Virus record (IMG/VR): IMGVR_UViG_3300048443_000082
Span: 1-38,654 of that record
Direction: 5' to 3' (one strand)
DNA length: 38,654 nucleotides
Source of the DNA: a virus
A program made the translations under genes and the position numbers. Position 1 is the stretch's first letter, and each line of letters begins with the position of its first letter. This document shows, piece after piece, positions 2,663-32,638 of this stretch. The notes under the pieces were generated by a model. It was given only the letters and a program-made list of their open reading frames with translations. It had not been told where the DNA came from and searched no databases.

Positions 2663-2911
2663 ATGGTTACATTATCTAAACCAATTAAGCGCGGCGACAA
2701 AGAAATTACCGAAATCAGCTTGCGCGAACCCACCGCCGGAGAGCTTCGCGGCCTGGATAACTTTGATGTCATGCGTATGAACGTAACCGCGCACCGGGCG
2801 TTAATCCCGCGTATCAGCGAATTAACGGCTAATGAATTTGACCAGCTACCGCCCAAAGACCTGATCGCCATCCAAAGCGAGGTGGTCGGTTTTTTCACAG
2901 GGACGGAATAA
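2663..2911 (+). CDS. E: Tail assembly chaperone E (P2 gpE family)
   Basis: An 82-aa protein of the phage tail assembly chaperone family, with the recognisable 'ISLREPTAGELRGLD' and 'ISELTANEFDQLPPKDLIAI' segments. P2 gpE is made alone and as an E+E' frameshift product; both are thought to load the tape measure before tube assembly. A T TTT TTC heptamer lies in the right frame five codons before the stop. Preceded by an AT-rich leader with an AGGAAG Shine-Dalgarno. Confidence 0.88.
   Translation: MVTLSKPIKRGDKEITEISLREPTAGELRGLDNFDVMRMNVTAHRALIPRISELTANEFDQLPPKDLIAIQSEVVGFFTGTE
2890..2896 (+). other. Slippery heptamer T TTT TTC for -1 frameshift
   Basis: The zero-frame codons read GGT TTT TTC, so the heptamer fits X XXY YYZ exactly. 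Both tRNAs can re-pair on TTT TTT after slipping back one base. P2 uses a related T6G site at the same point in E. Confidence 0.8.
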
Positions 2912-3075
2912 GCGTTCCGCGTGATGTAATGGAAGCGGAGGCGGACATTTACCTGGTGTTTACCGGGTTTAACGCCGACACTACCGCCCCAATGCGCCTT
3001 GATGAGTTGATGAAGTGGCACGCCATCGCCGTTAAACGCCACCAACAAGGCCAAGAAAATAACCACGCCGGGTAG
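2896..3075 (+). CDS. E': E' extension, made as E+E' by -1 ribosomal frameshifting
   Basis: After a -1 slip at 2890-2896, translation continues for 59 codons to TAG at 3073, giving a 137-aa E+E' product (P2 E+E' is about 142 aa). The extension has the GpE' pattern: 'EAEADIYLVFTGFNADTTAP' followed by LDELMKWHAIAVKRH. It overlaps the end of E, has no good start of its own, and lies just before the tape measure gene, the same arrangement as P2. Confidence 0.85.
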   Translation, partial: HRDGISVPRDVMEAEADIYLVFTGFNADTTAPMRLDELMKWHAIAVKRHQQGQENNHAG

Positions 3076-3097
3076 CCGATAAGGCCCCGGCTTTTTT
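3067..3097 (+). terminator. Terminator overlapping the end of E'
   Basis: A GCCGGG / CCCGGC stem followed by six T. The stem starts inside the last E' codons and lies 12 bases upstream of the tape measure start, so it may attenuate rather than fully stop read-through. Confidence 0.65.
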
Positions 3098-3108
3098 GTG
3101 GGGGCCGC

Positions 3109-5949
3109 ATGGCTGATAAAAACCTACGCTTAAATATGATCATGTCCATGGTGGATAAGCTGACCACCCCGGCGCAAAAAGTCACCAAACAGACCGACGC
3201 CATGGCCACGAAAATAAAGGCCACTCAGCAGGAGTTAACCCGGTTAGGGGCCACCAATAAAGACATTGAACATTTTCGGGAATTGAAAAAACACGCGTCG
3301 GCCACCGAACAGGCCCTGGATACAGCCAAAAAGCAGACCGCCGCGCTGGGCGTCCAGCTAAAAAATACCGCCAATCCGACCCGCAAAATGACGCGGGAGT
3401 TTGAAAAGGCCACCGCCGAGGTGCGCCGGTTGGAATCGGTTCAGCAAAAAGAGCGCCAGGAACTGCAGGCGATGCGCACGACCCTGGACAAAGCCGGGGT
3501 GTCTACGCGTAACCTGAGCAAAGCGACCCGAGATATTCAAACCCAAAGCACCCGGTATACTCAGCAGCTAACGAAGCAGCGCAACGAACTGGAAGCGGTG
3601 ACCGCGCGCCAGGCCAAGTTAAATAAAATCACCGACCGTAACAAAAATATCCGCTCTAATGCCATGGGGGACGCCATCGGGGTGGGGGCGGCGCTGTATG
3701 CCGCCGAGCGATTAACCGCCGCGTATGGGGATGTCGCCAACGCCCAGGGCGAAATCGGCTCACTGGGGGTAAGCAGTAAAGGCATTGACGCCATTACCAA
3801 GTCGGCCCGTGATTTTTCCAATCAATGGGCCGGGACCACCCAGGCGGATTTTATCCGCGCCTCTTATGATATTAAGTCGGGGATCTCGACCCTGGGCGAT
3901 GAAGCCGTGGGCGAGTTTACCCGGATTGCGGCGCTGACCGCCGGGGCCACAAAGTCGGCCACCGGAGAAATGACCAGCCTGTTTGCCTCTGGTTACGGGA
4001 TTTACCGCAAGCAGTTTGACCAATTTGCCGCCGGTACCATAGAGGGCTGGAACCAGCTATCTGCAGAAGAAAGAGACATTAAATTTGGTGAGTATTTCAG
4101 CGCCGGTATTGCATCGAGCGTAAAGGCATTTAAAACCGACGGCCAGCAAATGAGCGCGGCGATTTCTAATCTGGGCGCGGCGGCAACATCGGCCAATGTC
4201 CCGTTTGCCGAGCAGCTATCTATTTTAGGCCAGTTACAGGCCACCATGGGCGGCAGTGAAGCGGCCACCAAGTACCGGGCGTTTTTGTCCAGCGCGGCCA
4301 AGGCGTCGGACGAATTGGGCCTGTCCTTTACCGATGCTAATAATAATTTGCGTGATATGCCGGATATTTTGGAGCAGCTACGCGACAAATACGGCGACAC
4401 CATCGACGCGGTGGAAGAACAGGAGCTTAAAAAAGCGTTTGGCACCGATGAAGCCATCGGCTTAATCAAATTGTTGTACCCGGAAGTGGACCAGCTACGG
4501 CAAAACATCGACGGGATGAACGGGTCGCTGTCAAAAGGTACGGCGGTGACCGAAGATATGGCCAAGACCATTTTAAAAGGTCCTGGTCAGGCATTGCCGC
4601 TGATGATGCAGCAGATCAGCAATATGACGGTGGCCATCGGCGGGCTATTGGCCCCGGCCATGATGGGGATCGCCGGTTTCGCCGGGGATGCCGCCATGGC
4701 CATATCCAGTTTTACCGAGCAATTCCCTTTGCTGTCCAAAATGCTGGGCTTTGCGGTGGTGGGGCTGGTAGGGCTAAAAGCGGCCAGCGTGGTATCCAGG
4801 GTGGCTTTTTCGCTGTTTTCTGATGCCATGGTCTTTGGCAGTAAAGTAACGGCGCTGTTTAATCTGACCACCTTAAAAAGCAACGCCCTGTTAGCGGTAA
4901 GCCGTGTACGCGCCCTGGCGGTGACATCGGGCATTGTGGCGATGGCAGCAGCCCAAAAGGCGGTGGCCGCCAGTACCGCCGTGATGACGGCCGCCCAATG
5001 GGCCTTTAATGTGGCCTTGTCGGCCAATCCTATTGGTCTGGTGATTGTGGCTATCATGGGCCTGGTGGCGGCGGCGGCCCTGGTGATCAAACACTGGGAC
5101 AGCGTAAAAGGCTTTTTTGCCGGGCTGTGGGATTCAGTGACCAATATCTTTAGCCAGGCATGGGGGAACTTTAAAGAGATCCTTTCTTACACCCCATTAG
5201 GGTGGCTGATGTCGGGCTGGTCGGGGGTAACCGATTTTTTCACCGGGATTTGGCAAAGCGTAAAAAGCACCGTAACCGGCTTTTTTACCTGGGTAGAGGG
5301 CATCATCGGCTTTAATCCGCTTAGTGCGTTTACAGAAGCCTGGTCGGGAGTGACCGATTTTTTTGCCGGTATCTGGCAAAGCGTAAAAAGCACCGTAACC
5401 GGCTTTTTTGCCTGGGTAGAGGACATCATCGGCTTTAATCCGCTGACAGTGATCACCGAAGCCTGGTCAGGAATTTTTGACTTTTTCGGCGGCCTGTTTG
5501 GCGGCATAAAATCCAGCTTAGGCGGGGTGACTAAGTGGCTAACCGACACGTTGCTAAACCCAATCAGCGCCATCAAAGACACCCTGGGCGGCGTCTGGGA
5601 TAGCCTGTTTGGGGAAGATAAAGACGTAACGGTTAATAGCCAGGTTAAAGCGGTGACCGCTCCGGCGGTGGCGGCGGTGCCTTCGCTGACCAATCCCCAG
5701 GCCCCGGCCCCGGCCACCGGTGACGATATGGCGGCCCCCGCGTCGGTCCCAGGACCCCGCGCAGCGGCCACCGGTTTGGTGACGCCGGGCGGGCAATCAT
5801 CGGTGCAATACACCTACACCTATGGCGATATTGTGGTGCAAGCCCAGCCGGGCGACAGCGCCCAGGATATTGCCGAAGAAGTGCGCCGCCAACTGCAAAG
5901 CCGGGAACGGGCGACCCAGCAGCGCACCCGTGGCCGCTTAGGCGATTAA
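3109..5949 (+). CDS. T: Tail tape measure protein (P2 gpT family)
   Basis: A 946-aa protein, the longest in the window. Residues 1-180 are charged, Gln/Lys-rich coiled coil. A TP901/T-type domain follows (about 190-480; 'GSLGVSSKGIDAITKSARDF' and 'ISNLGAAATSANVPFAEQLS'). Hydrophobic stretches of transmembrane character lie around 500-650. A 41-residue tandem repeat then occurs, and the C-terminus is Pro/Ala-rich, ending in a short basic helix. It sets tail length and is ejected with the DNA. Position after E/E' matches P2. Confidence 0.9.
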   Translation: MADKNLRLNMIMSMVDKLTTPAQKVTKQTDAMATKIKATQQELTRLGATNKDIEHFRELKKHASATEQALDTAKKQTAALGVQLKNTANPTRKMTREFEKATAEVRRLESVQQKERQELQAMRTTLDKAGVSTRNLSKATRDIQTQSTRYTQQLTKQRNELEAVTARQAKLNKITDRNKNIRSNAMGDAIGVGAALYAAERLTAAYGDVANAQGEIGSLGVSSKGIDAITKSARDFSNQWAGTTQADFIRASYDIKSGISTLGDEAVGEFTRIAALTAGATKSATGEMTSLFASGYGIYRKQFDQFAAGTIEGWNQLSAEERDIKFGEYFSAGIASSVKAFKTDGQQMSAAISNLGAAATSANVPFAEQLSILGQLQATMGGSEAATKYRAFLSSAAKASDELGLSFTDANNNLRDMPDILEQLRDKYGDTIDAVEEQELKKAFGTDEAIGLIKLLYPEVDQLRQNIDGMNGSLSKGTAVTEDMAKTILKGPGQALPLMMQQISNMTVAIGGLLAPAMMGIAGFAGDAAMAISSFTEQFPLLSKMLGFAVVGLVGLKAASVVSRVAFSLFSDAMVFGSKVTALFNLTTLKSNALLAVSRVRALAVTSGIVAMAAAQKAVAASTAVMTAAQWAFNVALSANPIGLVIVAIMGLVAAAALVIKHWDSVKGFFAGLWDSVTNIFSQAWGNFKEILSYTPLGWLMSGWSGVTDFFTGIWQSVKSTVTGFFTWVEGIIGFNPLSAFTEAWSGVTDFFAGIWQSVKSTVTGFFAWVEDIIGFNPLTVITEAWSGIFDFFGGLFGGIKSSLGGVTKWLTDTLLNPISAIKDTLGGVWDSLFGEDKDVTVNSQVKAVTAPAVAAVPSLTNPQAPAPATGDDMAAPASVPGPRAAATGLVTPGGQSSVQYTYTYGDIVVQAQPGDSAQDIAEEVRRQLQSRERATQQRTRGRLGD
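5215..5460 (+). repeat. 123-bp tandem repeat inside the tape measure gene
   Basis: Two nearly identical 41-codon units, at 5215-5337 and 5338-5460, each with SGVTDFF.GIWQSVKSTVTGFF.WVE.IIGFNPL, followed by a partial third unit (AWSGIFDFF). Copy changes would lengthen or shorten the ruler by whole units. Confidence 0.85.
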
Positions 5950-7835: not shown

Positions 7836-8612
7836 TTATTCCCCGCGCCGCCTTTCGGCTATCAAAAATCCCACCACCGCTATCATAAACAGCACGGCCA
7901 TGCCTTGCTGCAGACCATCCCACACGATAAAAAAATCAAAATGATCATGCTCTACGATATAAGGCCAGATGGCCCCGTCAAAGGGGATACCATTTACCGC
8001 CGCGTATACATCCCCCCATATCGCAAAAAACGCATCCACAATGATGGAAGCAGAGGCAAACGAGCAGCAGAATAAAACGAAATTGGTGGTTTTCATGGTC
8101 ATCATAACGCGGGCCATGCGTTGTTGTAGCGCCCCATTTTCCCGAAAAAACACCAGGCTTTTTTCAATGGCATTAAAGGCCGCAGCGGGCAGCAGACCGT
8201 TTTGATGCAATCGCCTGCAGGGCGAGCCAATCAGGTTTAGGTATTTGTCTTGTATGTAGCAGTGCGGCCCGACCCATTCGACAAATTTTACCGTTAACCA
8301 GGTCCGGCCATAACAGTAGAGAATAACCGGCAGGCTGGCGATAACGTCAGACCACAACGCCAGGTAAGGGCTGATCCCCGCCAGATTCGGGAACAGCACC
8401 AGGTAAAATAAGGCATAGTAAAGCAGCATCAGCATGGTGTATTCCAGCACCATGCGTTTGTTGTTTCGGTCTTTAAAGTACAGCCCGCCCACACACAGCG
8501 TCATTACAAAAGAAAAGCTAACGACTTCATAAACGGTGTTTAACCCGCCGCCCCCGGTTAAGTTAAATACGCCTAATTTAAACAGGCTAAAGCCTATCAA
8601 TCCCAGCGCCAA
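7836..8612 (-). CDS. Polytopic membrane protein, possibly frameshifted at its start
   Basis: About 258 aa from a TTG at 8612. Around six hydrophobic spans are visible: residues ~1-20, 27-47, 54-78, 80-102, 175-205 and 228-253. A soluble, basic loop lies between spans 4 and 5. The last residues are Arg-rich. No family is recognised. The gene follows the XRE regulator on the same strand and is probably co-transcribed with it. The only nearby ATG (8658) is out of frame by one; deleting one 7-bp repeat unit at 8631-8651 would restore it, giving an N-terminus MTPSHITRLTVKPLALG. It could be a membrane sensor for the regulator or a superinfection-exclusion protein; neither is shown. Confidence 0.6.
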   Translation of the reverse strand: MALGLIGFSLFKLGVFNLTGGGGLNTVYEVVSFSFVMTLCVGGLYFKDRNNKRMVLEYTMLMLLYYALFYLVLFPNLAGISPYLALWSDVIASLPVILYCYGRTWLTVKFVEWVGPHCYIQDKYLNLIGSPCRRLHQNGLLPAAAFNAIEKSLVFFRENGALQQRMARVMMTMKTTNFVLFCCSFASASIIVDAFFAIWGDVYAAVNGIPFDGAIWPYIVEHDHFDFFIVWDGLQQGMAVLFMIAVVGFLIAERRRGE

Positions 8613-8668: not shown

Positions 8669-8971
8669 TTATTTTAAGTATTTTGCAAGTGATGAAAAGA
8701 TGCGCTGAATGGCTGACTCTGACGGGCTGTTTTGACCGTTGAGCATGTAGCCATTCACCAGGACATTTTGCAGCGCCAGCCACTTTTCCAACGGTATCGA
8801 GCGTTCGCCGCTTTCGTACCGTTGCAACGTCCTGGGCGAAATGTTCGCGTTATGCGCTGCTTCTTCCTGGCTGATGCCTAACCGCTCCCTGGTTTCTTTT
8901 AAATCAGTTGCAATACTTGCCCGGCTGATACCTTGCCAGGCGATGGGCTTTTTATTGCCGGATGTAAACAT
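8669..8971 (-). CDS. XRE-family transcriptional regulator
   Basis: A 100-aa protein with a classical helix-turn-helix at about residues 24-64: LKETRERLGISQEEAAHNANISPRTLQRYESGERSIP. The C-terminal ~35 residues are a helical extension with no obvious ligand domain. It is divergent from the 61-aa gene at 9296. The 10-mer TGGATATATA lies 3 bases before its ATG and again, in the other orientation, upstream of the divergent gene, which suggests autoregulation. Its promoter also carries a CI-type operator. It resembles the regulator half of regulator plus small-protein induction modules. Confidence 0.8.
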   Translation of the reverse strand: MFTSGNKKPIAWQGISRASIATDLKETRERLGISQEEAAHNANISPRTLQRYESGERSIPLEKWLALQNVLVNGYMLNGQNSPSESAIQRIFSSLAKYLK

Positions 8972-8974
8972 TGA

Positions 8975-8984
8975 TATATATCCA
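8975..8984 (-). promoter_or_regulatory. TGGATATATA box at the regulator start
   Basis: The minus strand reads TGGATATATA ending 3 bases before the XRE ATG, preceded by CTGTATA, so it also looks like half a LexA box. The same 10-mer is at 9248-9257 on the plus strand. Either XRE or LexA could bind. Confidence 0.4.
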
Positions 8985-9004
8985 TATACAGCATGGGGGC
9001 AGGA

Positions 9005-9032
9005 TTTTTACACCAGTGGTGTAAGAGATCAA
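9005..9032 (-). promoter_or_regulatory. Promoter of the XRE-membrane protein operon with embedded operator
   Basis: Minus strand: -35 TTGATC (9027-9032), 16-bp spacer, -10 TAAAAA (9005-9010). A perfect 17-bp palindrome TTACACCAGTGGTGTAA (9008-9024) fills the spacer and fits the ACAC-N5-GTGT operator family found near the repressor, rep and parA. Confidence 0.5.
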
Positions 9033-9057
9033 TAAAAATACGATTCAGTTATAAAAG

Positions 9058-9084
9058 GGTATACGCATTGTTCTATCGCATACC
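9058..9084. promoter_or_regulatory. Imperfect dyad in the divergent intergenic region
   Basis: GGTATACGC and CGCATACC are arranged as near inverted repeats around 10 bases. Together with the LexA-like box these are the only organised elements I see in the 324-base gap between 8972 and 9295. Confidence 0.3.
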
Positions 9085-9244
9085 TATTAAGCGGCGCAAA
9101 TCAGGGGGATACGACCGTTTGGACGTTCCGCCCGCCGCCGCGCTCTGGCTAAATAGCGGGGGTGTTCAGGGGGGCTGAACCCGAGGCAAAAAACATTTAA
9201 TAAAACGCTGGCAATTAGCAAATCAATCATTAAGATTATTTTCA

Positions 9245-9260
9245 CTGTGGATATATACAG
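9245..9260. promoter_or_regulatory. LexA (SOS) box
   Basis: CTGTGGATATATACAG matches the gammaproteobacterial LexA consensus CTGT-N8-ACAG with an AT-rich centre. It lies 36 bases upstream of the 61-aa gene, next to a -35-like TTTTCA at 9239-9244, where bound LexA would block transcription. DNA damage should then switch this gene on. Confidence 0.65.
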
Positions 9261-9295
9261 TTAATTAGATTGGTTTTTTTGGGGAGTAAATAAAT

Positions 9296-9481
9296 TTGAC
9301 CGACAGCAGCATGATCATACATGATAATCCTGAAGACGGGATCGACAGCATGATAGAAGGATGTGAGCTTTTATTGTCTATCGAAGGCCCGGCGGCGCTA
9401 GATGGCGGCCTGCTATTGCTTTTGCGTGTTATGCGCGAGCAAGGCGTAAGCATTCGTAACACCCTGGCGGCGAAAAAGTAG
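9296..9481 (+). CDS. 61-aa acidic protein under a LexA box; candidate antirepressor
   Basis: TTG start with GGGGAG 9 bases upstream (an ATG at 9311 is an alternative). The protein is acidic at its N-terminus (MTDSS..DNPEDGIDSMIEG) and amphipathic or hydrophobic in the middle (GGLLLLLRVMREQGVSI); no domain is recognised. It is the first gene behind the LexA box and is divergent from the XRE regulator. Because the phage's CI cannot self-cleave, a small SOS-induced protein that inactivates CI is expected somewhere, and this gene has the right size, control and place. Phage 186 Tum and VP882 Qtip are functional analogies, not detected homologues. Confidence 0.55.
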   Translation: MTDSSMIIHDNPEDGIDSMIEGCELLLSIEGPAALDGGLLLLLRVMREQGVSIRNTLAAKK

Positions 9482-9503: not shown

Positions 9504-9532
9504 TTGAGGTTATTACACGTTTAGTGTTAAAT
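9504..9532 (+). promoter_or_regulatory. rep promoter with CI-type operator in its spacer
   Basis: -35 TTGAGG (9504-9509), 17-bp spacer, -10 TTAAAT (9527-9532). The operator ACACGTTTAGTGT (9515-9527) lies in the spacer. It faces the rep gene across a leader of about 290 bases. Confidence 0.55.
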
Positions 9533-9604: not shown

Positions 9605-9731
9605 AGAAAAAAACCCCAAGGTGACAGCCTTGAGGTTCTTTAAATCGGAAATTGAAAAGCAAATCTTAATTTACTAATAATCCCCAGCAAAAGTGATTGT
9701 TAGTCTACATTAGCTTTATCCGGTTTCGCAA
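9605..9731 (-). ncRNA. Candidate countertranscript RNA in the rep leader
   Basis: On the minus strand a stem (AACCTCAAGG / CCTTGGGGTT, plus positions 9612-9637, one mismatch) is followed by a long T tract (A tract at 9605-9613 on plus), so a minus-strand terminator lies inside the rep leader with no minus-strand protein gene to serve. A minus-strand promoter-like pair TTGCGA (9726-9731) and TAGACT (9702-9707), spacer 18, would give an RNA of about 90 nt complementary to the leader. Antisense RNAs in this place control rep translation in many plasmids. Not tested. Confidence 0.4.
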
Positions 9732-9828: not shown

Positions 9829-10566
9829 TTGATTACTCGCATCCCGGCCCACAAACGCGGCCTGCAGGACAAAATCTTTGTCCATGAGTCTGCCACCCGT
9901 GAATTTACCCCGACAGCGGGGCTTATCTTTGGTTTCCTGGCGTTTTCTATCTGCAAGCATGGTAAGGCCACGCATTCTAAATCGACCCTGGCCCGGCGCA
10001 TTCACTGCGAACGGCGCACGGTTCAGCGTAACATCAAAAAGTTGGTGGATGCGGGCTGGCTGCAAGAGCAGGAAGGCAGCACCCCCAGTAAGAATGTTTT
10101 CATCTTTGGCGAGCAGTGCCCCGAGCAAGTGATCCGCTCCTACCGGGCCATTATCCAGCGAAAAGGCAAGCAACGCGACGACGGCTTTTTAATTGGCGTT
10201 GAGATTGCCGGATATGACCAGATAGACAAAGACGACATCAACCGCAAAAAAGCAGCACAGTGGCGCACCCTGGCGTATGTCAAAGCGTTGCTGGCCTACC
10301 GTAGCGCCTCCCATGCTTTACGTAATAATAAGCAAGCCCGTGCCAAGTACAAAAACCTGACCCACTTAGCCAATCATTTAAACGTGTGCCTGAAAACGGC
10401 CGCCCGTTACCTGCGCATCTTAAAAAGCGCGGGCCAGCTTAAAGGTGTGGTGTACGATAGGGGCCTGTGTATCGACCCTGACGGGGCTTTGTTTAACCAG
10501 GTGCTGGCTATCTATAACAGACTGCAAAAGCTGCAGTATGTAGAGCAGTACGACCCGGTTTATTAA
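9829..10566 (+). CDS. Putative replication initiator with two winged-helix domains
   Basis: A 245-aa protein from a TTG start preceded by GGGGGTG. Residues ~25-90 form an HTH_36-type winged helix (KSTLARRIHCERRTVQRNIKKLVDAGWL). Residues ~165-215 form a second HTH (THLANHLNVCLKTAARYLRILKSAGQL). Two related DNA-binding domains and an adjacent downstream origin with iteron-like repeats and a DnaA box are typical of iteron plasmid initiators, though I cannot assign a specific Rep family. The long regulated leader also fits rep control. It could instead be a phage replication regulator. Confidence 0.6.
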   Translation: MITRIPAHKRGLQDKIFVHESATREFTPTAGLIFGFLAFSICKHGKATHSKSTLARRIHCERRTVQRNIKKLVDAGWLQEQEGSTPSKNVFIFGEQCPEQVIRSYRAIIQRKGKQRDDGFLIGVEIAGYDQIDKDDINRKKAAQWRTLAYVKALLAYRSASHALRNNKQARAKYKNLTHLANHLNVCLKTAARYLRILKSAGQLKGVVYDRGLCIDPDGALFNQVLAIYNRLQKLQYVEQYDPVY

Positions 10567-15957: not shown

Positions 15958-16605
15958 TTATTTATCTGTAATTGCGCCCAGGCGATCTACAATGGACTGG
16001 ACGTACACCCCGGCTTTTTCTCTAACTGACTTGTGCGCCGCTTCACAAATAGATTTCCCCTGGTTGTGGGCATCCGCATAACTTTGCTTTTCTTCGACGG
16101 AGCCATCCAGGATATAAAAACCCGTTTTCCCCAGGTAATCGTGGGCGGCATCAAATGCGGCCTTGCTGTTACTGGCCCGACACAAACCAAACGCGATTTT
16201 GTCCATGGCCACGCCGTGTTTGTTAACCAGGTTATGGGCCATTAATACGGCGGGGGTTAAATCATCCAGGGTTAACCCGGTGGGGATAATAAACAGATCG
16301 GATGCCTGGGCAATTTCGACCGTTTTCTGGCTGGCTTTTGCGCCGCCATCTAAAATAAGTAAATCAGTGTGAGGAACGGCTTTTAATGCCTGGTCTACGG
16401 TGCCGAACGGCTCCACCGCTACCACGGGGGTAACGCCATTGGTTAAGCGCAATTGTTGCCATTTCACACAAGTTAATTGCTCTAAATCCATATCACCGAT
16501 TTTTACATCCCAACCGGCGCGCGCGTATTCTGTGGCCAGCGCCCGGCATGTGGTAGATTTGCCGACACCGCCTTTTTGCTGGCCAACGCCAATGATATAA
16601 CCCAT
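15958..16605 (-). CDS. parA: ParA-family partition ATPase (type Ib)
   Basis: A 215-aa protein. It has the deviant Walker A KGGVGKST at residues 11-18 with the signature Lys11, a DMD Walker A' segment at 38-40, and DLLILDGG (Walker B region) at 81-88. Small size without an N-terminal HTH puts it with type Ib ParA/ParF, which pair with RHH proteins, and one is adjacent. It positions plasmid copies before division. Its promoter carries a CI-type operator. Strong evidence that the prophage is maintained as a plasmid. Confidence 0.88.
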   Translation of the reverse strand: MGYIIGVGQQKGGVGKSTTCRALATEYARAGWDVKIGDMDLEQLTCVKWQQLRLTNGVTPVVAVEPFGTVDQALKAVPHTDLLILDGGAKASQKTVEIAQASDLFIIPTGLTLDDLTPAVLMAHNLVNKHGVAMDKIAFGLCRASNSKAAFDAAHDYLGKTGFYILDGSVEEKQSYADAHNQGKSICEAAHKSVREKAGVYVQSIVDRLGAITDK

Positions 16606-16640: not shown

Positions 16641-16669
16641 ATTGTATTAACACTTTTAGTGGAAAACAA
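16641..16669 (-). promoter_or_regulatory. parA promoter with CI-type operator in the spacer
   Basis: Minus strand: -35 TTGTTT (16664-16669), 17-bp spacer, -10 TACAAT (16641-16646). The operator ACACTTTTAGTGG (16650-16662) fills the spacer. Confidence 0.65.
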
Positions 16670-17397: not shown

Positions 17398-17426
17398 AAT
17401 AGGGTAGGCCTTTATTAATATCTATT

Positions 17427-17479
17427 ACACTATAAGTGGAAACTACCACTAATCGTGTAATATTTACAACTATTAGTGT
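17427..17479. promoter_or_regulatory. Three CI-type operators upstream of the 90-aa gene
   Basis: ACACTATAAGTGG (17427-17439), CCACTAATCGTGT (17446-17458) and the half-site CAACTATTAGTGT (17467-17479). Spacings are 19 and 21 bases, close to two turns, as in lambda-like operator triplets. Confidence 0.7.
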
Positions 17480-17535
17480 AAAAAAAACCGACAAAAAAAC
17501 CGCTTTCGCGGCTTTAATGGGGTGAATCGGTTGGC

Positions 17536-18174
17536 TTACAGGCTCCGGCTGACCCTGATAACCCGCCCGATAATAATAATATCGTCTAGGCTGACTTTGG
17601 TATCTGGCTGAATATCCTTGTTATTGGCCTGCAGTGTAAACGTACTGTCTGGCTCTGGCCGTATTCTGCGTAACCAGATGCTACCGCGCACCATAATGGC
17701 AAAAATATTGGTATACAGTGGGGTGGTTTCCCCGCGATTAATCAAGACTTCATCGCCTTTTTCAATGTCGCCGGTCATTGCATCGTCCGGGGCGTAAATA
17801 TTCATCAGCACATTGTGATCAAGGCGGGCACGTTCCAGGTAATCTTTGCTTAGTGCGGTATCCAGGCACGGGTCCCGAACATCCACCAAACTGCCCCTAA
17901 CTTCGATGGTCATTTTGCCAGGGCAGATAAAGTCCTGGCCATTAAGTAATTTAAAATCACGGTCGGACCAGCCCACGATATATTCGGGCGTCACGCCAAA
18001 GACCCTGGCGGCGCTTTCCACTTCGGGATAGCGCGGGATTCTTATGCCCTGTTCCCAATTTCCATAGGTGGACGGGGTAACCCCGATTTGCTCCGCCGCT
18101 TCCCGGATTTTCAGTTCTTTTTCGTCGCGTAATTTTCTTAGGCGGCGCTTGATGATGTCCTTAGTGTTTCTCAT
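17536..18174 (-). CDS. CI-like repressor with degenerate S24 peptidase domain
   Basis: A 212-aa protein. N-terminal HTH at ~20-65 (LKIREAAEQIGVTPSTYGNWEQGIRIP). The C-terminal domain is LexA/S24-like: DDAMTGDIEKGDEVLINRG aligns with the family's 'SM..i..GD.v.v', and FAIMVRGSIWLRRI aligns with the 'Kr' motif. The catalytic Ser is Ala132 and the catalytic Lys is Arg169, so RecA-stimulated self-cleavage should not work. The domain probably only dimerises. It presumably keeps lysogeny by binding ACAC-N5-GTGT sites around it. Divergent from the Cro-like gene, as expected. Confidence 0.88.
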   Translation of the reverse strand: MRNTKDIIKRRLRKLRDEKELKIREAAEQIGVTPSTYGNWEQGIRIPRYPEVESAARVFGVTPEYIVGWSDRDFKLLNGQDFICPGKMTIEVRGSLVDVRDPCLDTALSKDYLERARLDHNVLMNIYAPDDAMTGDIEKGDEVLINRGETTPLYTNIFAIMVRGSIWLRRIRPEPDSTFTLQANNKDIQPDTKVSLDDIIIIGRVIRVSRSL

Positions 18175-18343: not shown

Positions 18344-18402
18344 TCTAAAACAACTTTAAAGTAAAAAAAATATACAAAAGACTATGTTTATACTTTCAAA
18401 TA

Positions 18403-18435
18403 ACACTAAAAGTGTTAAATTAACACTACAGGTGT
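18403..18435. promoter_or_regulatory. Two operators in front of the Cro-like gene
   Basis: ACACTAAAAGTGT (18403-18415, perfect) and ACACTACAGGTGT (18423-18435), 20 bases apart, 17 bases before the cro ATG. A TTAAAT at 18415-18420 may be the -10 of the rightward promoter; I could not settle a -35. Confidence 0.75.
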
Positions 18436-18451
18436 TTAAGTTTGGTTTTGT

Positions 18452-18664
18452 ATGGATTTTAAAGATTGGGTAAAGGGTGTGGGCGGCGTGAATAACGCAG
18501 CGCAAATATTAGGCGAAAAGCCGCGCACCGTGCGTTCCTGGTTCTACTCTGAAAAACCCCCCCGCTTTGAGGCGGCGGTTAAAATTGTATCGCGCACACC
18601 ACTGGATTTTAACGCCCTTTACAACCCCTTTATGACAATGAAAACAACAGGTAAGAGCGAATGA
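18452..18664 (+). CDS. Cro-like regulator
   Basis: A 70-aa protein with a compact HTH: WVKGVGGVNNAAQILGEKPRTVRSWFYSEKPPRFEAAVKIV. Size, divergent position opposite the CI-like gene and the operators between them make it the lytic partner of the switch. It heads the rightward early operon; the stop overlaps the next gene by 4 bases. Confidence 0.75.
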   Translation: MDFKDWVKGVGGVNNAAQILGEKPRTVRSWFYSEKPPRFEAAVKIVSRTPLDFNALYNPFMTMKTTGKSE

Positions 18665-25328: not shown

Positions 25329-25418
25329 GGGATAATCTAACCGGCGGCCCGGTCCGATTTTTAAAAAGTGATCCAGTCTTGCAGGCCGCGCAGTATAAGG
25401 CGCTACGATTTATTTTTA

Positions 25419-25449
25419 ACACTAAAAGTGAGCCTTTTACACAAAGTGT
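25419..25449. promoter_or_regulatory. CI-type operators in the late control region
   Basis: ACACTAAAAGTGA (25419-25431) fits the operator family; ACACAAAGTGT (25439-25449) is a palindrome with a shorter centre. A TATACT at 25473-25478 may be a -10. In the 316-base gap 25329-25644 I see only these, the terminator at 25595 and no gene; it is the likely late control region for lysis and virion genes. Confidence 0.55.
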
Positions 25450-31301: not shown

Positions 31302-32638
31302 AAACCGCCTTTGCGCTGAATTATTTAACCAGCCACCTGTGGGCCGTATCGCCCCAGGTGCTGGGCAGCATGGCCAACCTGGCCGCCCGTAACATTGAGG
31401 ATATCGACTTAAATGCCCTAACCGCCTTAAAGCCAGAAGCTGTGGCCGGGCGGGCTGGGCAGCCGGTCACCCCGCGCCTGGAAATGCGCGAAGGGGGCGT
31501 GGCGGTGTTGTCGGTGGTGGGGGTGATATCCCGCTATGCGTCGATGTTTGATGATATTTGCGGCGGGGTATCCACCGATGCGCTGGCCAAAGAGTTTAAC
31601 CAGGCATTACACGATCCGACCGTATCGGCCATTGTGCTGACCTTTGACAGCCCCGGCGGGGATGCCAACGGCATTCACGAGTTGGCCGAAATGCTCTACC
31701 AGGCGCGCGGTAAAAAGCCCATTAAAGCGTATATCGGCGGCACCGGAGCCAGCGCCATTTACTGGCTGGCCTCTGCTTGCGATGAAGTGGTGATTGATGC
31801 CACCGCCCGGCTGGGGTCGGTGGGGGTGGTGATGAGCGCCGAGCGTTCCCGCCCCAGCGAGGATGCCCCGGAGCGTTTGGAAATTGTGTCGAGCCAGTCG
31901 CCTAATAAGCGCCTGGATGTGTTTACCGAAGACGGCCAGGCCGCCGCCCAACAGCAAGTGGACCAACTGGCGGATGTGTTTGTGGCGCGGGTCGCCCGCA
32001 ACATGAGCGTATCGCGTGAAACGGTGCTAAGTGATTTTGGCAAAGGCGGCATCCTGATTGGTCAGGCCGCTGTGGATAAGGGCATGGCCCACCGCTTAGG
32101 CAGCTTAGAAACCCTGATCACTGAACTTAACCAAGGAGCTACCCCCATGACAACCAAGACCACCGCCGAGAGCGGCAAAAACAAGACCATTGTACTGGCC
32201 GGTGCCAGTCCTATGCAGGCCGCCGATATTGTGGCCACGCTCAAAGCCGAACGCCCCGACGTTTTAACCTTGTTAAACCCGGAGCCTGAAACGGCACTAT
32301 CGGCCGCCGAAGAAATTGCCACGGCGTGTGCTGAAAAAGGCGTACCGGCCTTATCGGCCAGCCTGCTTAAAGCGGGCATGAGCAAAGCCGATGCCCTGGC
32401 CAAAATTGATTTGGCGTCGGGCCTAAAAGATAAGCTATCGGCCGCCGGGCTAGCCGGGGCGTTTGATAATATCGCCGCCAGTTTGGGCAACCCCCTGGAT
32501 ATGGTGGGTAAGGCCATTTACGCGGCGCAGAGCGAAGCCGACGAAGGCCGGGACATCGAGCGCCAGACGGCCGAGAAGGGCACCCCCGGCGCGGATGTCA
32601 GCCTGTCTACCAAAGACGTTTACAAAAATCGCCGTTAA
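31298..32638 (+). CDS. C: Head maturation protease with scaffold domain (lambda gpC family)
   Basis: A 446-aa S49/SppA-type serine protease. VLTFDSPGGDANG (~113-125), nucleophile Ser152 in GASAIYWLA, and Lys204 in SPNKRLDVF as the probable general base. The N-terminal two thirds are protease, the last ~160 residues are Ala-rich helical scaffold. As in lambda C/Nu3, an internal start in frame would make the scaffold alone. Processes the portal and itself during capsid assembly. Confidence 0.9.
   Translation: MKTAFALNYLTSHLWAVSPQVLGSMANLAARNIEDIDLNALTALKPEAVAGRAGQPVTPRLEMREGGVAVLSVVGVISRYASMFDDICGGVSTDALAKEFNQALHDPTVSAIVLTFDSPGGDANGIHELAEMLYQARGKKPIKAYIGGTGASAIYWLASACDEVVIDATARLGSVGVVMSAERSRPSEDAPERLEIVSSQSPNKRLDVFTEDGQAAAQQQVDQLADVFVARVARNMSVSRETVLSDFGKGGILIGQAAVDKGMAHRLGSLETLITELNQGATPMTTKTTAESGKNKTIVLAGASPMQAADIVATLKAERPDVLTLLNPEPETALSAAEEIATACAEKGVPALSASLLKAGMSKADALAKIDLASGLKDKLSAAGLAGAFDNIAASLGNPLDMVGKAIYAAQSEADEGRDIERQTAEKGTPGADVSLSTKDVYKNRR
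32147..32638 (+). CDS. Nested scaffold protein (lambda Nu3-like internal start)
   Basis: In-frame ATG at residue 284 of the protease gene, preceded by a perfect AAGGAG (32133-32138) with 8-base spacing. The product is 163 aa, Ala/Glu-rich and helical (ADIVATLKAERPDVLTLLN, AADALAKIDLASGL pattern). Gene arrangement is that of lambda C and Nu3. The scaffold shapes the procapsid and is then removed. Confidence 0.75.
   Translation: MTTKTTAESGKNKTIVLAGASPMQAADIVATLKAERPDVLTLLNPEPETALSAAEEIATACAEKGVPALSASLLKAGMSKADALAKIDLASGLKDKLSAAGLAGAFDNIAASLGNPLDMVGKAIYAAQSEADEGRDIERQTAEKGTPGADVSLSTKDVYKNRR

Follow-up and report, generated by a model that had tools for sequence, protein, structure and literature searches.

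A putative LexA-controlled small antirepressor beside the replication gene of a phage-plasmid with a CI-like repressor lacking the catalytic Ser/Lys pair

We analyzed a 38,654-bp stretch of viral DNA (hereafter the window), which is the whole of IMG/VR virus record IMGVR_UViG_3300048443_000082. Since genes for a replication initiator-like protein, a KfrA-like protein and ParA lie in it beside tail, terminase, capsid and integrase genes, the window is, judged by gene content, a phage-plasmid, with plasmid replication and partition genes and phage structural genes in one record. The locus considered here is placed between tail gene D and rep, and an XRE-type regulator, a divergent 61-aa open reading frame (the small ORF) and a LexA box were all found where the original prediction, made from the letters of this DNA, had put them (Table 1). 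The same locus occurs on a 7-kb metagenomic contig, L004, with identities to the window of 79% for the XRE protein, 61% for the TM (258-aa) protein, 59% for the small ORF and 74% for Rep. Searches of the window's Rep against plasmids and against phages gave no match, and no Rfam match was obtained between positions 8600 and 12300. An antisense RNA with a role in controlling rep could terminate at the minus-strand hairpin ahead of that gene. The 258-aa protein, whose counterpart in L004 has 270 aa (2771-3583, + strand), matched nothing in Pfam or PHROG and had no relative in genome contigs; it may be a sensor or effector partner of the XRE protein.

Table 1. Features of the window that bear on the small ORF and the CI-like repressor.
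Feature	Position	Strand	Remark
258-aa protein, about six hydrophobic segments, 3' of the XRE gene in the same orientation	7836-8612	-	Conserved in L004
XRE-type regulator, 100 aa, divergent from small ORF	8669-8971	-	HTH_3, E=2.7e-13
Conserved element ATATATCCATATAC[A/T]GCATGGGGGC ahead of XRE gene, candidate XRE autoregulation site	8975-9000		Comparison with L004
LexA (SOS) box CTGTGGATATATACAG, 35 bp ahead of small ORF	9245-9260		Sole exact CTGT-N8-ACAG of the window
61-aa small protein, TTG start, putative antirepressor, predicted helical hairpin	9296-9481	+	Purifying selection; AlphaFold
Candidate CI-type operator TTACACGTTTAGTGTTA, gap between small ORF and rep	9513-9529		Two mismatches to TAACACTNNNAGTGTTA
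Intrinsic terminator hairpin ahead of rep, end of possible counter-transcript	9608-9641	-	Same hairpin in L004
Replication-initiator-like protein (Rep), 245 aa, HTH_36	9829-10566	+	
ParA-like partition protein	15958-16605	-	
Candidate CI-type operator upstream of parA	16648-16664		
Three weaker CI-type sites clustered downstream of CI	17425-17481		Three mismatches each
CI-like repressor, 212 aa, HTH and S24-like domain, without Ser/Lys pair	17536-18174	-	
Two CI-type operators between CI and Cro	18401-18417, 18421-18437		First a perfect palindrome
Cro-like repressor	18452-18664	+	

The repressor encoded elsewhere in the window gives the locus its interest. When its catalytic positions were assigned by alignment to known S24 motifs, DDAM was found instead of GDSM, and WLRRI instead of xVKRL, so that Ala stands for the catalytic Ser and Arg for the catalytic Lys, as had been proposed for this phage. 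This sets the window's CI apart from the self-cleaving S24 class (lambda CI, LexA type). A PDB profile search with CI matched HTH halves or domains only. Among the CI relatives that we examined, the Lys position is Arg in every case and A, L, N or S is found at the Ser position, which indicates that this family lost the dyad long ago and generally, as far as the alignments reach. Phages with such a CI would require a different SOS input, if SOS induces them at all. The family was found in 87 of 50,697 named phage records (INPHARED). The small-protein family described below likewise occurs in 87 records, whose organism and host labels are those of the CI records; that the two sets coincide is read from these labels, and most members are near-identical Vibrio isolates that represent about six independent lineages.

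The LexA box that the original prediction placed ahead of the 61-aa gene is the only exact match to the consensus in 38.6 kb, and among SOS-box-like 20-mers of the window it also scores best (22.6 bits, using a matrix built from E. coli boxes). Its arms are identical between the window and L004, and the core is altered (CTGTGGATATATACAG vs. CTGTACGGCTATACAG). Terminase relatives of the window include the circular, 40.6-kb record of Aliivibrio phage vB_Alvi_H905, Vibrio phage 10N.237.312.C11_PE002A and many metagenomic and isolate records, and the same module was found in Vibrio phages K303, PhiPS02 and VPHZ6, Pseudomonas phage PARCL1pr and a Paraglaciecola MAG contig. An equivalent box precedes the small ORF in 13 other sequences; it stands directly ahead of the gene in H905, PE002A, K303, PhiPS02, PARCL1pr, VPHZ6 and the Paraglaciecola contig, and was also found there in records G004, G005/G009/G010, G006, G011 and G014/G015. 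The H905 gene is H905_00008. In 265 kb of sequence, 14 of the 17 perfect LexA boxes directly precede a small ORF, against about four perfect boxes expected in total by 4^-8. Two exceptions deserve mention. Record G002 has only a weaker box (TACTGAATGTATATCCAGTT), and G016 (L139-L141) encodes a CI of the non-cleavable type, but its stretch from gene D to the rep leader (about 8865-9398) is devoid of both LexA box and small ORF; G016 is predicted not to be SOS-inducible. A second perfect LexA box was observed downstream of repA in H905 (L086 6731-6746) and G006 (L137 2353-2368).

The small ORF itself starts with TTG behind a GGGGAG. Between the window and L004, differences at the three codon positions number 17/9/35 (dN 0.29, dS 2.8), and L004 keeps the TTG and has no ATG at the alternative start. 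This third-position bias and the retained start codon indicate that the ORF is a real gene under selection at the protein level. In the relatives the corresponding ORFs are 67-78 aa long and are flanked by rep on one side and by gene D or another late gene on the other. The small proteins share the pattern NPLIxxN..dTi..L.... As stated in the original prediction, the protein belongs to no known family; the small proteins gave no significant match to Pfam or PHROG, and a homologue search of viral contigs and phages with the single 61-aa sequence returned nothing; the family was recovered solely through the LexA boxes of terminase relatives. An AlphaFold model from 12 sequences predicts a helical hairpin (pLDDT 79), for which Foldseek gave no informative neighbours in the PDB (nothing below E 1). 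Most members of this apparent family are joined by pairwise links, and the window/L004 pair is the most divergent: it reaches the rest by hhalign with a probability of 25% (E 7.5e-4), the window's protein is 35% identical to that of G004 over 51 aa, and the pair separates in all-against-all clustering at E 0.01. Since this similarity is weak, the homology of the window and L004 proteins with the wider family rests partly on position and the LexA box.

A perfect palindrome (TAACACT-AAA-AGTGTTA) lies in the gap between CI and cro, together with a near copy. Sites of this type with at most two mismatches number four in the window, compared with 0.05 expected, and those with at most three number nine, compared with 0.86. 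Of the four, two are those of the CI-cro gap, the third precedes parA and the fourth lies in the gap between the small ORF and rep. In L004, a perfect operator copy occupies the same place in that gap. K303 and PhiPS02 have there an exact ACCAC-N5-GTGGT, a word that recurs near their own CI exactly or with one mismatch; in PE002A the gap holds a weak match to the phage's own CI motif, and in the H905 group only a half-site match. The gap operator thus changes with the CI, each version matching sequence near its own CI gene. From their position, CI would be the protein that binds these operators, with Cro as an alternative. The sites in the gap of the window, L004, K303/PhiPS02 and PE002A indicate that the LexA-controlled small gene lies outside the putative CI site guarding rep. 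A further CI-type site is found at 25417-25433, upstream of the lysis/packaging region; together with the sites before parA and downstream of CI, it suggests a wider CI regulon.

The constant position of the small ORF directly upstream of rep, in the relatives as in the window, raises the question of its target. One reading is that the small protein is an SOS-induced regulator of replication that acts on the adjacent Rep or on a leader or antisense RNA, and so sets copy number instead of inactivating CI; its placement and the possible counter-transcript terminator in the gap would fit such a role. However, the adjacent rep genes come from five or more unrelated families, whereas the CI proteins form one, and reps have been exchanged beside near-identical partners. 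In K303 and PhiPS02, for example, CI is 92% and the small ORF 82% identical, but the reps are not homologous over their length, and between the Paraglaciecola contig and G006 the rep is swapped beside near-identical small ORF and CI. Distances of the small ORF and CI correlate with r=0.91, and still with 0.62 (permutation p=2e-4) once integrase distance is accounted for; the partial correlation of small ORF with integrase given CI is 0.01, and that with rep class given CI is 0.04, all in Mantel-type tests on 11-15 related taxa, which are lenient. The small ORF thus appears to track CI, not Rep, and the unrelated reps and the co-divergence with CI together point to CI as the likely target. Regulation of replication in place of CI inactivation seems unlikely to us.

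A different target altogether would be the host. Phage 186 is annotated in its record with tum/dinI, fil and dhr, and the small family has no function in Pfam or PHROG, so it could be imagined that the protein is an SOS-induced modulator of host takeover, cell division or DNA repair (DinI-, Kil- or Dhr-like) in a phage that is induced by another route. Such a role would leave both the co-occurrence and the co-divergence of the small ORF with a non-cleavable CI unexplained, and we regard it as improbable.

The regulator that diverges from the small ORF bears on the cue rather than the target. The original prediction pointed to the 10-mer TGGATATATA, present in front of both genes, as a candidate site for binding by the XRE protein. 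Its two exact copies lie at 8975-8984 (- strand) and 9248-9257 (+ strand), and the right-hand copy is the core of the LexA box. At one mismatch there are four copies against 1.7 expected, and in L004 the 10-mer is missing on the LexA side. We rejected it as a shared operator; the pair is best seen as coincidental. A perfect palindrome with the geometry of the CI operators, TTACACC-AGT-GGTGTAA, was also observed in the XRE promoter region (9008-9024), and it is not conserved in L004. The window's XRE protein matched nothing in plasmids and gave generic HTH matches only in phages.

Nor is the XRE gene a necessary or general part of the module, as had been supposed. Both LexA box and divergent XRE are found in the window, L004, VPHZ6, PE002A and G015, and PE002A and G015 carry in addition a LuxR-like/PAS regulator upstream. 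In PE002A the XRE gene is unannotated (L087 32364-32687, - strand), diverges from the small ORF with its LexA box and is accompanied by the LuxR-like/PAS gene at 31461-32204. G003 alone (L133 1775-2101) has the small ORF and a divergent XRE gene without a LexA box, the two genes being separated by a long inverted repeat, AAAAATATCCGTAATGGATATTTTT; this version is apparently SOS-independent, which suggests that one small protein can be wired to different cues. SOS-independent transcription factor-small ORF (TF-smORF) switches have been described in Vibrio phages 63 and 72 (PMC10432266). The same logic, with an XRE protein activating the small gene in response to some signal and the LexA box being secondary, could be proposed for the present module, and the divergent XRE genes and the LuxR-like/PAS regulators speak for it. 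Yet H905, G004, G005, G006 and G011 have the LexA box and no divergent XRE; the XRE proteins of VPHZ6, PE002A/G015 and G003 are 38-48% identical to each other, but that of the window is hardly related to them; and the published modules were chosen for an autoproteolytic CI (PMC10432266). An SOS-independent switch as the main wiring of the window is therefore highly improbable in our estimation, and the XRE protein, sometimes with a LuxR-like partner, would be an optional extra input to a LexA-controlled small gene.

Several known systems resemble the proposed LexA-controlled antirepressor. GftA, GfoA, GfhA and FsoA of Gifsy-1/2/3 and Fels-1 are small, LexA-controlled proteins with non-ATG starts that bind and inactivate a repressor which is not inactivated by self-cleavage (PMC3121763). 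The window's gene is like them in LexA control, start codon, size and repressor type; unlike these genes of integrated lambdoid prophages, it lies beside a plasmid rep with a CI-type operator in between. The phage-plasmid N15 has a LexA-regulated antirepressor, AntC (Mardanov and Ravin, 2007, as cited in PMC11652158), and a repressor shown to be non-proteolytic (PMC10432266). N15 CB is remotely related to the window's CI family (E 2.5e-9), but N15 is a linear telomere phage. Tum of phage 186 shares the LexA box and, according to its record, inhibits DNA binding by CI, but it has 146 aa with a DinI-like half, and the CI of 186 showed no match to the window's CI family. Of the two analogies drawn originally, that with Tum stands, and that with VqmA-Qtip fits less well than GftA/GfoA/FsoA, Tum or AntC. 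In VqmA-Qtip and other TF-smORF modules, the small ORF inactivates CI independently of SOS, and the set was selected for autoproteolytic CI (PMC10432266). The window shares with them a regulator divergent from a phage-specific small ORF of roughly 60 aa in a plasmid-like phage, but has a LexA box and a dyad-less CI where no LexA control and an autoproteolytic CI are reported (Silpe et al., 2023), the smORFs being compared by description. As for homology, a profile of the small family (A6) found nothing at E<=10 in the Fels-1, 186 and N15 records and detected 11 of 20 related records, so the likeness to GftA/FsoA, Tum and AntC is one of working, with no relationship found. A search of the open-licence literature returned no described LexA-controlled antirepressor of the small family.

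Taken together, a LexA box directly ahead of the gene and a cognate repressor predicted, by motif alignment, not to cleave itself are features that the small ORF shares with the functional class of LexA-controlled small antirepressors. The idea of an SOS-driven small protein that replaces CI self-cleavage is strongly supported by comparison, through the box, the ORF family, the loss of Lys, the co-occurrence and the co-divergence; the parts of that idea that concerned the XRE protein and the 10-mer are not. We consider it probable that the 61-aa protein is a LexA-controlled antirepressor that inactivates the non-cleavable CI and provides the SOS input of this phage-plasmid, and the conserved module is most likely a family of such antirepressors. 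In a lysogen, host LexA would keep the small gene off, and CI would occupy pR (before cro) as well as the sites ahead of parA and in the gap that separates the small gene from rep. DNA damage would remove LexA and allow the small protein to be made, which would then inactivate CI, most likely by binding it directly in the manner of GftA and Tum. CI would leave pR and the rep-proximal operator, the lytic programme would start, and rep-driven replication would probably be raised at the same time. The divergent XRE protein may act as an additional, optional input or as an autoregulator of the same promoter region. We infer the inactivation of CI, and likewise the effects on rep and XRE, from the arrangement and comparison of these genes. 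More tentatively, the slot beside rep may be a plug-in induction port that accepts LexA alone, LexA with an XRE or LuxR-like regulator, or XRE alone, and in which release of CI frees the operator guarding rep and so ties induction to the change from plasmid replication to the lytic mode; we hold this broader idea to be possible but rather doubtful. If true, SOS-dependent and SOS-independent induction would be linked through a single family of proteins.

When plasmid-like phages were searched for small-protein induction modules in published work, those with non-cleavable repressors were left out of consideration (PMC10432266). The present comparison suggests that a phage family with just such a CI carries a small protein outside Pfam and PHROG that is mostly LexA-controlled and sometimes has extra regulators. 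It yields probable CI operators, one of them ahead of rep, and natural variants (LexA only, LexA with XRE, XRE only) for studying how phages rewire their induction cues, and it offers a concrete proposal, open to testing, for the way in which these marine phage-plasmids may be induced.
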